Below, piece by piece: positions 34,920-39,584 of a stretch of 64,000 bases of DNA. Position 1 is the stretch's first letter; each line of letters opens with the position of its first letter. The translations under genes and the position numbers were made by a program. The notes under the pieces were generated by a model. The model ran no database searches. It was not told where the DNA came from and saw nothing but the letters and a program-made list of their open reading frames with translations. Origin of the DNA: Lachnospiraceae bacterium (GTDB lineage Bacteria > Bacillota > Clostridia > Lachnospirales > Lachnospiraceae); contig JAFYGB010000019.1 in assembly GCA_017543445.1 (NCBI GenBank), positions 62,001-126,000 of the forward strand. Reading direction: 5' to 3'.

Positions 34920-35912
34920 TTAGCTTACGATCGCATTGATCTGATCGATCGTCTTCGACTCTACGAAATCCACACACTGCATGATCGCGTTTTTGATCTC
35001 TTTCTCCGTCGCGCTGCCGTGGGTCTTAACTACGAGAGCCTTCAGGCCCAGCATAGGCGCGCCGCCATATTCCGAGGCATCGAACTTCTTGATCACGCCC
35101 TTCAGGTTTTTCTTCACCATCAGCGCTCCGAGCTTGCCCTTCAGGTTGGAAAGCATGCCCTTTTTGATCTCGCTGACGAGCGCGGAACCGACGCCTTCGT
35201 AGAGTTTCAGAATGACATTGCCCACGAACGCTTCCGTAACAACGACATCGGCCGCTCCGTAAGGAATATCACGGGACTCTACGTTTCCAATGAAATTGAT
35301 GTCTTCGCATGCCTTCAGAAGCGGGAATGTCTCTTTAACGAGGGCATTACCCTTCTCTTCTTCTGCACCGATATTTACGATACCGACTCTCGGCTTCTTC
35401 ACCTTACATACGCGCTCCATGTAAATGGAACCCATGCGGGCGAACTGAACCAGGTCCTCCGGACGTGCGTCGACATTCGCGCCACAGTCGATCAGAAGGC
35501 TGGCGCCCTTCGTCGTAGGGATCAGCGGAGCCAAAGGTGTGCGGCGAATGCCTTTGATACGGCCGACGATGAGCTGGCCGCCGACTAAGATGGCACCGGT
35601 GCTACCGCTGGAAATGAAAGCGTCAGCCTCGCCATCGCGCACTAATTTCTGCGCAACTACGAGGGAGGAGTCCTTCTTCTCACGGATCGCTGCCACGGGC
35701 GGTTCACCGGTCTCGATGACCTCGGTGGCATTGACCACCGAGACACGTGACTTATCGTATTGATATTTCGCTAATTCCGCATGGACCGCGTCTTCTTTAC
35801 CGACGAGGACGATTTGGATATTATCGCGAAGAGCCAGGCTATCGATCGCGCCCTGTACGATCTTCTCAGGCGCGTTGTCGCCGCCCATCGCGTCGATTGC
35901 TATTTTGATCAT
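34920..35912 (-). CDS. plsX: phosphate acyltransferase PlsX
   Basis: PlsX converts acyl-ACP to acyl phosphate for PlsY. The 330-residue protein begins IKIAIDAMGGDNAPEKIVQG, the family signature, and has ISSGSTGAILVGG, LIDCGANVDARPEDL and VTEAFVGNVILKLYEG. It lies 9 bp behind carB, so in this genome it may depend on read-through from the carB promoter. Its usual upstream neighbour rpmF is 3.7 kb away. Confidence 0.96.
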   Translation of the reverse strand: MIKIAIDAMGGDNAPEKIVQGAIDSLALRDNIQIVLVGKEDAVHAELAKYQYDKSRVSVVNATEVIETGEPPVAAIREKKDSSLVVAQKLVRDGEADAFISSGSTGAILVGGQLIVGRIKGIRRTPLAPLIPTTKGASLLIDCGANVDARPEDLVQFARMGSIYMERVCKVKKPRVGIVNIGAEEEKGNALVKETFPLLKACEDINFIGNVESRDIPYGAADVVVTEAFVGNVILKLYEGVGSALVSEIKKGMLSNLKGKLGALMVKKNLKGVIKKFDASEYGGAPMLGLKALVVKTHGSATEKEIKNAIMQCVDFVESKTIDQINAIVS

Positions 35913-35921
35913 GTCTACCCC

Positions 35922-38900
35922 TTACTGGATGGATGCATGGATGTCCTGCAGGCTCATTACGCCGATCTCACCCTCATGGATGACGGTGTAGATACCATCG
36001 GCGGTCGCCTTTGCGGCTGCCATGGTCGTGATATACGGAACCTTTGCCTTGATCGCCGTCTTACGGATGTAGCTGTCGTCAAAGATTCTCTCGTTCGGAG
36101 CGGTCGGTGTGTTAATAATGAGCTGGATCTTGCCGTTCATCACTTCATCCACGATGTTCGGACGGCCTTCCTGCATCTTGTTGATGCGCTCAGCCTTGAT
36201 GCCGTTTGCTACGAGAAGCTCGTAGGTGGAACCGGTCGCCACGATGCGGAAGTTGCAAGCCTCGAACTTACGAGCTACGTCAACGACTTCCGGCTTATCC
36301 TTGCGGTTTACGGAGAACAGTACACAGCCTTCCTTCGGCAGAACGGTCTGGGTAGCTTCCTGAGCCTTGAAGTATGCCTCGCCGACATTTGTGGACAGGC
36401 CGAGGACCTCACCTGTGGAACGCATTTCCGGTCCGAGGACAGGGTCTACTTCCTGGAACATATTGAACGGGAATACCGCTTCTTTTACGCCATAGTACTT
36501 CGGCTTGATCTCCTTCATGGTCGGGATCGGTGACTCCATACCAGTCAGAGGCGCGGTCATGATCTGTGTTGCGATCTTTACCATGTTGATGTTGCAGACC
36601 TTCGATACAAGCGGAACGGTTCTGGATGCTCTCGGGTTTGCCTCGAGTACGTATACCTTACCATCCTCGATCGCGTACTGCATATTCATCAGGCCGCATA
36701 CGCCCATCTCATCGGCGATCTTGCGAGTGTATTCCTTGATCGTCTCAACGAGGTTTGCGGGAATGTTCTTCGAAGGCAGGATACATGCGGAGTCACCGGA
36801 GTGAACACCTGCAAGCTCAATATGCTCCATAACAGCAGGAACAAATGCATGCTTGCCGTCTGCGATCGCATCAGCCTCACACTCCGTCGCGTGACGAAGG
36901 AAGCGGTCAATGAGGATCGGACGATCCGGGGTCACACCAACAGCTGCAGCCATGTACTGCTTCATCTGCTCGGGCTCATTTACGACCTCCATGCCGCGGC
37001 CGCCCAATACGTAGGAAGGACGAACCATAACCGGATAACCGATCTTCTCAGCGATGGCCAATGCTTCTTCTACATCGACTGCCATGCCGGATTCGGGCAT
37101 CGGAATGTCCAACTTATCCATCATGCCTCGGAACAGATCGCGGTCCTCTGCCATATCGATAACTTCCGGAGAAGTACCGAGGATGTTGACACCGTTCTTC
37201 TTCAGATCTGCTGCAAGGTTGAGCGGTGTCTGGCCGCCGAACTGAGCGATAACGCCCACCGGCTTTTCTTTATTGTAGATGCTGAGAACGTCTTCCAGGG
37301 TCAGAGGCTCGAAGTAGAGCTTATCGGATGTATCATAGTCCGTGGATACAGTCTCAGGGTTACAGTTAACGATAATGGTCTCGAAGCCGAGTTCCTTCAA
37401 AGCGAATGCAGCGTGTACACAGCAATAGTCGAACTCGATACCCTGACCGATACGGTTCGGGCCGCCACCCAGGATCATGATCTTCTTGCGATCGGTGATC
37501 GTAGTGTGATCCGGTGCGCAATATGTCGAGTAGTAATATGCGGAATTTTGAGTACCGAATACATGTACCGGCTCCCAGCTCTCGGTAATACCATAGGAAA
37601 GACGGGTGTTACGAACCTCATCCTCCTTCACTTCGAGGAGCTTAGCAAGGTAACGGTCAGAGAAACCGTCCTTCTTCGCAGTCTCCAGGATCTCCTTCGA
37701 AGGAACGCTGCCCTTCATGGTGAGGAGCATCTCTTCCTCTTCTACCAGTTCCTTCATCTGCTCGATGAAGTATTTCTTGATCTTTGTAAGGTTGTGGAGT
37801 TCATCAACGGTTGCGCCCTTACGAAGTGCCTCGTACATGATGAACTGGCGCTCACTGGTCGGGTAGATCAGTTTTGCAAGCAGGTCTTCCTTCGACAACT
37901 CATGGAAGTCCTTCGCGAAGCCCAGACCGTAACGGCCGATCTCCAGGCTGCGGATCGCCTTCTGGAAGGCTTCTTTATAGTTCTTACCGATACTCATGAC
38001 TTCACCTACGGCGCGCATCTGAGTACCGAGCTTATCTACAGAGTCCTTAAACTTCTCGAATGCCCAACGAGCGAACTTGATTACGACATAGTCGCCCCCG
38101 GGAACATACTTATCCAGCGTACCGCATTTTCCGCAAGGGATCTCATCCAGGGTCAGGCCTGCAGCAAGCATAGCGGAAACGAGCGCGATCGGGAAACCGG
38201 TCGCTTTCGAAGCCAGTGCGGAAGAACGGGAAGTTCTAGGGTTGATCTCGATAACGATGATACGATCGGAAACCGGATCGTGTGCGAACTGTACGTTCGT
38301 ACCACCGATGACCTGAACCTCGTTAACGATACGATATGCCTGCTCCTGCAGACGCTTCTGGACCTCTTCGGAGATCGTGAGCATCGGTGCGGAACAGAAG
38401 GAGTCACCGGTATGTACACCCATCGGGTCAATGTTCTCGATGAAGCAAACGGTGATCATATTGCCCTTTGCGTCACGAACGACTTCGAGCTCGAGCTCTT
38501 CCCAGCCGATGATGGACTCCTCAACGAGTACCTGGCCTACAAGACTGGCCTGAAGTCCACGAGCGCAGACGGTCTTCAACTCTTCTACGTTATATACAAG
38601 GCCGCCGCCGGCACCACCCATGGTGTAAGCGGGACGCAGAACAACCGGATAACCCAGCTTATCAGCGATGGCAAGTGCTTCCTCAACACTATAAGCAACT
38701 TCGCTACGCGCCATCTCGATGCCGAGTTTATTCATGGTCTTCTTAAACTCGATACGGTCCTCACCACGCTCGATGGCATCGACCTGAACACCGATGACCT
38801 TTACATTATACTTATCCAGGATACCCTTCGTAGAAAGTTCCGAGCAAAGGTTCAGTCCGGACTGTCCGCCGAGGTTCGGCAGGATCGCATCGGGACGCTC

Positions 38901-39140
38901 TTTCTCAATGATCTGCTCCAGACGCTTAACGTTCAGGGGCTCGATATAGGTAACATCCGCAATGCCGGGGTCCGTCATGATCGTCGCCGGGTTGGAGTTT
39001 ACCAAAACGATCTGGTATCCAAGCTTACGCAGCGCCTTACAAGCCTGGGTTCCGGAATAGTCGAACTCACAAGCCTGGCCGATAATGATCGGGCCGGATC
39101 CGATAATAAGTACTTTTTTGATGTCTTCTCTTTTGCTCAT
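35922..39140 (-). CDS. carB: carbamoyl-phosphate synthase large subunit
   Basis: CarB makes carbamoyl phosphate from bicarbonate, ammonia and two ATP for pyrimidine and arginine synthesis. The 1072-residue protein is full length: two ATP-grasp halves (GSGPIIIGQACEFDYSGTQA and GGGPNRIGQGIEFDYCCVHA mark each start), with RTSRSSALASKATG in the first and RASRTVPLVSKV in the second. An MGS-type allosteric domain forms the last 140 residues. GGAGG precedes the ATG. No carA is adjacent, so the glutaminase subunit must lie elsewhere. The gene has its own promoter, leader peptide and attenuator. Confidence 0.98.
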   Translation of the reverse strand: MSKREDIKKVLIIGSGPIIIGQACEFDYSGTQACKALRKLGYQIVLVNSNPATIMTDPGIADVTYIEPLNVKRLEQIIEKERPDAILPNLGGQSGLNLCSELSTKGILDKYNVKVIGVQVDAIERGEDRIEFKKTMNKLGIEMARSEVAYSVEEALAIADKLGYPVVLRPAYTMGGAGGGLVYNVEELKTVCARGLQASLVGQVLVEESIIGWEELELEVVRDAKGNMITVCFIENIDPMGVHTGDSFCSAPMLTISEEVQKRLQEQAYRIVNEVQVIGGTNVQFAHDPVSDRIIVIEINPRTSRSSALASKATGFPIALVSAMLAAGLTLDEIPCGKCGTLDKYVPGGDYVVIKFARWAFEKFKDSVDKLGTQMRAVGEVMSIGKNYKEAFQKAIRSLEIGRYGLGFAKDFHELSKEDLLAKLIYPTSERQFIMYEALRKGATVDELHNLTKIKKYFIEQMKELVEEEEMLLTMKGSVPSKEILETAKKDGFSDRYLAKLLEVKEDEVRNTRLSYGITESWEPVHVFGTQNSAYYYSTYCAPDHTTITDRKKIMILGGGPNRIGQGIEFDYCCVHAAFALKELGFETIIVNCNPETVSTDYDTSDKLYFEPLTLEDVLSIYNKEKPVGVIAQFGGQTPLNLAADLKKNGVNILGTSPEVIDMAEDRDLFRGMMDKLDIPMPESGMAVDVEEALAIAEKIGYPVMVRPSYVLGGRGMEVVNEPEQMKQYMAAAVGVTPDRPILIDRFLRHATECEADAIADGKHAFVPAVMEHIELAGVHSGDSACILPSKNIPANLVETIKEYTRKIADEMGVCGLMNMQYAIEDGKVYVLEANPRASRTVPLVSKVCNINMVKIATQIMTAPLTGMESPIPTMKEIKPKYYGVKEAVFPFNMFQEVDPVLGPEMRSTGEVLGLSTNVGEAYFKAQEATQTVLPKEGCVLFSVNRKDKPEVVDVARKFEACNFRIVATGSTYELLVANGIKAERINKMQEGRPNIVDEVMNGKIQLIINTPTAPNERIFDDSYIRKTAIKAKVPYITTMAAAKATADGIYTVIHEGEIGVMSLQDIHASIQ

Positions 39141-39173
39141 CTTCGTCCTCCATCGTATCTCTCATATGAGTAT

Positions 39174-39224
39174 TTAAACATACGGTCCGCTTACTGCGAA
39201 CCATTCTTGTATTAAGGCAATCAA
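39174..39224 (-). CDS. possible second leader peptide, 16 residues
   Basis: A TTG at 39224 follows GGAGG by 7 bases and opens a 16-codon frame, MIALIQEWFAVSGPYV, ending 33 bp before carB. Bases 39184-39202 within it form a 7-bp hairpin (GGTTCGC/GCGGACC, with one wobble). The ribosome site is good, but a frame this short can occur by chance. I report it because it lies inside a regulatory leader. Confidence 0.3.
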   Translation of the reverse strand: MIALIQEWFAVSGPYV

Positions 39225-39263
39225 CAGGGAGCCTCCACAACCGCGGCCCTATAAAAACGCAAC

Positions 39264-39293
39264 AAAAAAGTCAGTCTCGAAAAAACAACTGAC
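39264..39293 (-). terminator. attenuator terminator in the carB leader
   Basis: GTCAGT/ACTGAC arms (39293-39288 and 39275-39270), extended by one U-G pair, are followed on the minus strand by TTTTTTG. The stem starts one base after the TGA of the upstream leader peptide, so a ribosome at the leader stop would cover its 5' arm and block termination. It lies about 125 bp before carB. Confidence 0.8.
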
Positions 39294-39294
39294 C

Positions 39295-39402
39295 TCAAAC
39301 GAAAATATAGGGAACAGAAATAAAAGGGACGGAATTGAGAGAATCGTATGTCCCGTGTTTTCCACTCTGCATATTCAGACTCGTTAGCATAGCAGACTTC
39401 AT
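39295..39402 (-). CDS. carB leader peptide, 35 residues (pyrL-like)
   Basis: The ATG at 39402 is preceded by a strong GGGAGG 5 bases away and lies about 29 bases after the predicted transcription start. The peptide begins MKSAMLTSLNMQSGKHG and ends SVPFISVPYIFV. It has no run of one regulatory amino acid and no arginine. Codons 24-35 are a pyrimidine tract (31 of 37 bases from 39333 down to 39297), and the stop codon abuts the terminator stem. This matches the plan of E. coli pyrL: RNA polymerase pausing when UTP is low lets the ribosome catch up and prevent termination. The mechanism is inferred; the layout is seen. Confidence 0.65.
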   Translation of the reverse strand: MKSAMLTSLNMQSGKHGTYDSLNSVPFISVPYIFV

Positions 39403-39437
39403 GTCTTCCTCCCTATTCATTGCCTTAAATCTATAAA

Positions 39438-39466
39438 ACTATACCACAGGATGTTGAAAACTGCAA
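39438..39466 (-). promoter_or_regulatory. SigA-type promoter of carB
   Basis: The -35 TTGCAG (39466-39461) and -10 TATAGT (39443-39438) are 17 bp apart on the minus strand. Transcription would begin near 39431, shortly ahead of the leader-peptide ribosome site. Confidence 0.78.
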
Positions 39467-39517
39467 CTGTTTTTTTGAATTTTTTTCGGATTTTTTCACG
39501 TCCGGTTAGAATCATTT

Positions 39518-39539
39518 GGGAGGCGCTTCTGCGCCTCCC
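39518..39539 (-). terminator. GC-rich hairpin after rpmF, no T-tract
   Basis: Perfect 9-bp arms GGGAGGCGC/GCGCCTCCC with a 4-base loop lie 45 bp past the rpmF stop. No T-run follows on either strand. It probably ends or stabilises the yceD-rpmF message, but it is not a textbook intrinsic terminator. Confidence 0.5.
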
Positions 39540-39584
39540 GATTCACGTGAATATTATATCTTTTAAAACTCAATCAAGTCAGGA

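Follow-up and report, generated by a model that had tools for sequence, protein, structure and literature searches.

The carB gene in the stretch of DNA analyzed here (the window, 64,000 nt) is preceded by a short leader that, judging from the arrangement of its parts, is probably a ribosome-assisted transcription attenuator that works like that of E. coli pyrBI and senses pyrimidines. In the pyrBI system, as described in the accessible portions of two papers, polymerase crosses the leader and terminates when UTP is ample; in a shortage it pauses, and the coupled ribosome prevents the hairpin from forming (PMC10135430; PMC5021804). The elements of the carB leader and the gene itself are listed here in the direction of transcription:

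39438..39466, minus strand: promoter, TTGCAG (39466-39461), 17 nt, TATAGT (39443-39438), with TGn ahead of the −10
39409..39428, minus strand: 5′ arm of a putative long-range helix, covering the leader Shine-Dalgarno sequence
39408..39414, minus strand: Shine-Dalgarno sequence of the leader frame, AGGGAGG
39295..39402, minus strand: leader frame of 35 codons, ATG at 39402 and TGA at 39297-39295, MKSAMLTSLNMQSGKHGTYDSLNSVPFISVPYIFV
39298..39333, minus strand: pyrimidine tract, the last 12 codons of the leader, 30 of 36 pyrimidines (20 T, 10 C)
39264..39293, minus strand: intrinsic terminator (attenuator), a 6-bp core stem and six Ts
39212..39231, minus strand: 3′ arm of the putative long-range helix, in the spacer past the terminator
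35922..39140, minus strand: carB, carbamoyl-phosphate synthase large subunit, the gene under putative control (TIGR01369, 1362 bits; NF003671, 1484.8 bits)

The TGn ahead of TATAGT makes what we take to be an extended −10, and the −35 hexamer is weak, TTGCAG matching TTGACA at three of six positions; both hexamers are invariant in all six genomes of the genus. The core stem of the terminator pairs GTCAGT (39293-39288) with ACTGAC (39275-39270), followed by the six Ts at 39269-39264, and a single base separates it from the leader stop codon. In the predicted fold, the stem is extended to 10 pairs around a 10-nt loop and draws in the final two bases of TGA along with three of the six Ts, the leader frame ending 2 nt inside this extended stem. 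A first-pass annotation had described a promoter, a 35-codon frame, a strong ribosome site, a stop codon one base ahead of a stem, and six Ts, all of which we confirmed; its count of 31 pyrimidines in 37 bases was likewise reproduced, the last 12 codons alone giving 30/36. A strict consensus scan called neither the promoter nor the terminator at the leader, the former because its −35 matches TTGACA at only 3/6 and the latter because its loop exceeds the 8-nt limit of the scan. The fold of the leader up to the terminator was no better than shuffles (z −0.85), and the leader peptide had no NCBIfam match.

We propose that the tract at 39298-39333 is a region of UTP/CTP-dependent pausing. When UTP (and CTP) is plentiful, polymerase would cross the tract fast with no ribosome near, the hairpin would form, and transcription would end ahead of carB. 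When UTP is scarce, polymerase would pause in the tract and a ribosome on the leader could catch up; at or near the stop codon it would cover the 5′ side of the stem, the terminator would fail and carB would be made. A ribosome at a stop codon covers bases downstream of it, so a frame whose end falls ahead of the stem or inside it could function in the same way as that of pyrBI. The pause itself would create the coupling, because the polymerase of Bacillota is thought to outrun ribosomes. The available part of one study classes Bacillota as runaway-transcription species, with a ribosome seldom close behind the polymerase, and describes pausing of B. subtilis polymerase on T-rich sequence (PMC13323073). 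In such species, either the pause would buy the ribosome time or Rho would contribute. The same study puts the coding purine content of B. subtilis at 54% (PMC13323073); the value for the window is 0.531, and this nearness is compatible with runaway transcription. Only two gene-end terminators were found, too few to gauge coupling from the stop-to-terminator distance. A role of the tract as an anti-Shine-Dalgarno sequence was rejected, as the duplex it forms with the Shine-Dalgarno sequence was no better than that of dinucleotide-shuffled tracts in 8 of 10 leaders (P < 0.05 only in L319 and L046).

The identity of the signal was approached through the regulators encoded in related genomes. PyrR (NF003549) is over cut-off in none of the 37 genomes of the family (family f1, G000-G036), so that the earlier description of PyrR as the usual control does not hold here. 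Among 61 relatives, six have PyrR over cut-off, all six outside the family; weak matches below the cut-off occur, also in G000 (E 7.5e-5; assembly 93% complete). No Rfam family matches the 64,000-nt window at its gathering score (4227 models), and none of the four Rfam matches up to E 10 within 39100-39550 is a PyrR RNA element, in line with the first-pass remark that no PyrR-type site was evident. Since neither PyrR over cut-off nor an Rfam element was found and Arg codons are absent from the leader, a signal from pyrimidines read by polymerase pausing is the best-supported reading, with U (20/36) ahead of C (10/36) in the tract; we infer that this signal is the pyrimidine triphosphates, mainly UTP.

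The composition of the tract is exceptional for coding sequence in its surroundings: among 18,688 in-frame 12-codon windows from the 51 automatically called genes of the 64,000-nt window, none reaches 30 pyrimidines in 36. A tract that exceeds any 12 codons of the called genes in this way might instead be mainly a Rho-loading site, in which case Rho would stop transcription of an untranslated leader, translation would shield it, and the intrinsic terminator would be a back-up. Rho is over cut-off in all six genus genomes, and the available part of the study cited above describes B. subtilis Rho as terminating C- and U-rich RNA, which coding strands avoid (PMC13323073). However, Rho would have little room to act, since the tract is about 36 nt long and, in the nine sequences measured, only 1-42 nt lie between it and the intrinsic terminator; a terminator of this kind would also be unnecessary at a Rho site. 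We regard Rho-linked control as unlikely.

Returning to polymerase pausing, the codons chosen in the tract of the window are more pyrimidine-rich than the amino acids demand (P 0.0034, the best 36-nt window being re-picked in each simulation). The preference is also seen in L033, L288 and L044 (P < 0.02) and is not clear in L046, L275 and L319 (P 0.06–0.12), so that P < 0.05 holds in only four of the seven lineages tested, with the codon usage of the window applied to all of them. The encoded peptides invite a different explanation, a sensor of the trp or antibiotic type in which ribosomes slowed on Ser, Phe, Ile or Pro codons, or by a ribosome drug, would alter the RNA fold and the read-through into carB. 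Histidine leader peptides have been predicted in bacilli, according to the accessible part of the report (PMC2965389), and Ser and Phe are abundant in the carB leader peptides (37 S and 25 F among seven of them). This abundance is nevertheless explained by the tract being U-rich, and the leader encodes mixed residues with no run of a single amino acid. Arginine, which is tied to carB, is absent from the peptide of the window and accounts for five residues in the seven peptides. Neither the minimum-energy nor the centroid folds contain an antiterminator as an alternative to the terminator, alternatives having been searched non-exhaustively. An amino-acid or translation sensor seems very unlikely to us.

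The same layout, with different sequence, is found ahead of carB in six lineages besides the genus. To define the sample, 134 loci were asked for and 128 proved usable; a further 98 and then 31 brought the total to 257 upstream regions of the window's kind of carB. These were drawn from the carB matches listed, with at least five listed rows left out (G133, G306, G348, G571 and G562), and they are not independent genomes, L034 and L190 for instance showing the same sequence. No carB start was found in L217, L258, L262, L059, L344-L346, L364, L365, L425, L428 and L429; L220 is 65 nt long, and the upstream DNA of L204 (50 nt) and L413 (15 nt), though counted among the 257, is too short. The layout rule called for a frame of 15 codons or more that starts with ATG and has a Shine-Dalgarno of at least 4. 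The best 30 nt in the 60 nt ahead of the stem had to be at least 0.76 pyrimidine, the terminator had to reach −9 kcal/mol or lower, and the end of the frame had to lie between −5 and +16 nt from the start of the stem. Under this rule, which was fixed only after the first matches were known, 13 of the 257 regions match (12/226 and 1/31), as against none of 2260 dinucleotide shuffles and none of the 290 regions upstream of other automatically called frames of at least 200 aa. The 13 are the six of the genus together with L033, L319 (G497), L044, L275 (G505), L288 (G260), L046 and L393 (G576); in the other lineages the frame ends −4 to +16 nt from the stem start. The layout is thus rare, and most relatives lack it. 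A second rule, differing in part from the first, was applied to both strands of 120 loci (818,049 bases) and matched six times, four times ahead of carB; the sample favors this gene because 48 of the 120 loci hold the window's kind of carB.

Several other candidates were seen during these searches. L233 and L058 had matched a loose first rule and were judged accidental; that rule matched 20 of 1536 shuffles. L035 has a different attenuator-like leader within about 120 nt before carB, with seemingly exclusive hairpins and then six Ts, its stem ending 42 nt from carB; it was left out of the layout count. Among 60 pyrB and carA loci (L112-L171, flanks of 1.5 kb), none has the layout ahead of a gene, the one match, in L116, having no frame behind it. 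The same control was also considered for the nitroreductase-pyrB operon of this genome (L265) and rejected, as a promoter and a hairpin could be read there and no terminator. As a separate observation, pyrB is over cut-off in most of the family genomes G000-G036, PyrR in none.

Across lineages, the leader peptides are barely conserved. When the seven peptides were compared pairwise, the best pair reached E 0.001 and the next 0.012, with composition correction off. The nearest kin, L033 and L393, share 38 codons without an indel and have 31 differing sites. These comprise 15 of the 57 sites in the first half and 16 of the 60 in the tract half, so the latter evolves no more slowly in this pair; within codons 20-32, six of nine differences exchange one pyrimidine for another. 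A quick IQ-TREE was built from 133 rows with at least 190 aa of CarB, with SH-aLRT as its sole measure of support; on this tree, the 13 rows with a leader call for five changes compared with a shuffled mean of 12.5, a value as low being reached in 0 of 500 shuffles, and near-copies in the tree inflate this clustering; the starred branches force at least two changes of leader presence. The CarB of the window falls in a clade of 10 members (support 97), nine of which have the leader. In the tenth, G561, we read no frame, tract or terminator in the sequence between promoter and carB. The first-pass annotation had suggested asking whether the three elements co-vary, and they do so here: frame, tract and terminator occur together in all six genus genomes, L033, G576 and G497 and are jointly absent from the neighboring G561. 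The layout outlives the sequence, a pattern that fits selection on mechanism and not on the peptide.

Whether carB must be read through the terminator can be judged where the two lie close together. The distance from the stem end to the carB start is 27 nt in L046, 33 nt in L288, and 38 nt in both L007 and L319. A gap of 27–38 nt has no room for a promoter, and carB must therefore be transcribed through the terminator in these four; L044 is a weaker case, with 232 nt to carB and another promoter-like sequence between. We consider it very probable that the leader is a real attenuator. The same distances bear on the notion that the leader is a separate gene for a small protein, complete with a promoter and a terminator of its own; carB would then be expressed by leak-through or from another promoter, and nothing would be sensed. 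Such a gene would be complete in promoter, Shine-Dalgarno sequence, frame and terminator, and stop codons a few nt ahead of terminators are ordinary in B. subtilis, as far as the available part of the source goes (PMC7858274). Against it, there is no space for a carB promoter in the four sequences, the peptide is hardly conserved across lineages although the layout is, and the layout precedes carB and none of 290 other frames. We give this explanation only a small chance.

An attenuator under selection is also consistent with the pattern of conservation within the genus, where the leader is present in all six genomes compared. Promoter, Shine-Dalgarno sequence, frame, tract, stop codon and terminator stem are all retained in the alignment of the six. 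The leader frame has no indel and no internal stop; 16 of its 108 sites vary, eight of the 16 being third positions, and variable sites number 2 of 36 in the tract compared with 14 of 69 in codons 1-23. The terminator stem is kept throughout, L006 and L007 showing one U-A pair changed to U-G and a 2-nt deletion in the loop. In the leader 5′ UTR, 34 of 35 positions are invariant (five genus genomes, L007 left out). The spacer from the terminator to carB, in turn, has mostly diverged, and L007 has lost much of it. That the terminator is a constitutive damper or a relic of lost control, its frame and tract having no present role, agrees with the patchy presence of the layout (13/257, and none in G561) but not with a frame free of indels and internal stops in six genomes or a tract nearly fixed beside a diverging spacer, and we think it highly improbable.

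While the first-pass account of the leader was sound in its anatomy, it had overlooked a long-range helix between the 5′ end of the leader and the spacer, which is present in five of the six genus genomes and deleted in L007. Invariant sites make up 16 of the 20 positions of its 3′ arm, compared with 12/32 and 9/52 in the spacer on either side. The arms pair at 18-19 of 20 positions, and internal changes are to G-U; one G-G mismatch is common to all five genomes, and the end position pairs in L006 only. When the longer leader is folded, its minimum-energy structure includes the helix (z −2.69, with 2 of 100 shuffles as low). Because it forms only once polymerase is past the terminator, it cannot decide the termination of its own transcript, and because it is missing in L007, it is not essential. 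In most of the genus, the read-through RNA might pair its 5′ end and leader Shine-Dalgarno sequence with the spacer and so shut the leader frame; the helix may also protect the 5′ end of the transcript.

The carB gene stands alone with respect to carA. No carA is found beside carB in the 48 loci with carB of the window's kind (E 1e-20; flanks of 4 kb at most and less where a contig ends), and none is over cut-off in G000 (assembly 93% complete). In the two genus genomes examined, G003 and G001, a second copy forms a carA-carB pair behind purF-like and glutamate-synthase-like genes, these neighbors being named from reading the proteins and not from a search:

L374 1024-6765 and L375 743-6511: second CarB region of the genus, behind a purF-like gene and carA

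This second CarB is 46% identical to that of the window, and two CarB matches, of about 80–93% and about 57–60% identity over the first 200 aa, occur in many family genomes among the matches listed. We also asked whether the allosteric site of CarB points to a pyrimidine role. In an alignment to E. coli CarB (1a9x), the CarB of the window keeps the residues at 954, 974, 977, 993 and 1015, which we take to be UMP/IMP-site positions; position 1015 is the sole one at which the genus's second CarB departs from this, in an alignment judged by eye, and the comparison decides nothing. In the window (34920-39140), carB lies behind rpmF, a gene named by reading, and directly ahead of plsX with a gap of 9 nt, and plsX and the genes beyond may also feel the effect of the attenuator. 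In the other 47 loci with the window's kind of carB, plsX is absent from the fetched flanks (up to 4 kb). A hairpin at 39518-39541 on the minus strand, between rpmF and the leader promoter, shows pair-keeping differences in its inner pairs among the aligned genus genomes, such as GCGCAGAAGCGC versus GCGTAAATACGC.

A broader proposal, for which we see the case as evenly balanced, is that attenuators of the pyrBI kind operate in a phylum thought to be uncoupled, the UTP pause making coupling conditional and the coupling itself being the signal. Under this proposal, the layout would have arisen or been retained in a number of Bacillota lineages, of which one or more belong to a family lacking a recognizable PyrR; the peptide would be under no constraint, and selection would act only on the frame, tract and terminator; one genus would have added a helix that closes the leader after polymerase has escaped. 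The attenuator, if it works as proposed, would show how members of a Bacillota family without a recognizable PyrR control pyrimidine synthesis. It would also make a debated question testable, namely whether transcription and translation can be coupled on demand where polymerase normally outruns the ribosome, and the leaders would be short natural reporters for such conditional coupling. An attenuator whose sequence is hardly conserved would be invisible to family-based RNA searches such as the one made here with 4227 Rfam models at gathering scores.

Premature termination before pyrimidine genes is the mode of the PyrR-dependent pyr attenuators of Bacillota, and the carB leader is like them in terminating ahead of a pyrimidine gene. 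It is unlike them in that no PyrR is over cut-off in the 37 family genomes and no PyrR RNA element is among the Rfam matches. Leader peptides as such are already known in Bacillota. With the histidine leaders of bacilli, as the accessible part of that report presents them, the carB leader shares a short frame and a premature terminator; those leaders carry a stretch of His codons, whereas a pyrimidine tract and mixed residues are found here (PMC2965389). The available part of a study of bmrCD in B. subtilis reports ribosome-mediated transcription attenuation (PMC4191407), and the likeness, proposed in the case of carB, lies in a terminator controlled by a leader-bound ribosome in a Bacillota species. 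The bmrCD genes, in contrast, encode a drug transporter that responds to antibiotic pressure, and no link to pyrimidines is stated in that part of the source (PMC4191407). Among the matches listed from the open-access literature, titles and the openings of abstracts mention no leader of the pyrBI type in Bacillota.

The closest likeness is to E. coli pyrBI and its leader frame, pyrL, and the first-pass annotation had called the carB leader exactly this plan. The anatomy and its recurrence before carB point to an attenuator that functions as pyrBI does: both systems have a promoter and a leader frame (44 codons in pyrL, 35 here), the best 12 codons at the pyrL terminator are 29/36 pyrimidine compared with 30/36 here, and in both an intrinsic terminator lies ahead of a pyrimidine-synthesis gene. 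The exactness does not hold. The pyrL frame reads on through its terminator and stops 47 nt past the stem start, whereas the carB leader frame ends one base before the core stem, or 2 nt into the extended one. The target here is a lone carB, the loop is 10–12 nt compared with 4 nt in pyrBI, and the helix between 5′ end and spacer is a feature of the carB leader; no relation in sequence is claimed. Because the frame does not cross the terminator, we describe the carB leader as working like pyrBI and do not call it a pyrBI attenuator.
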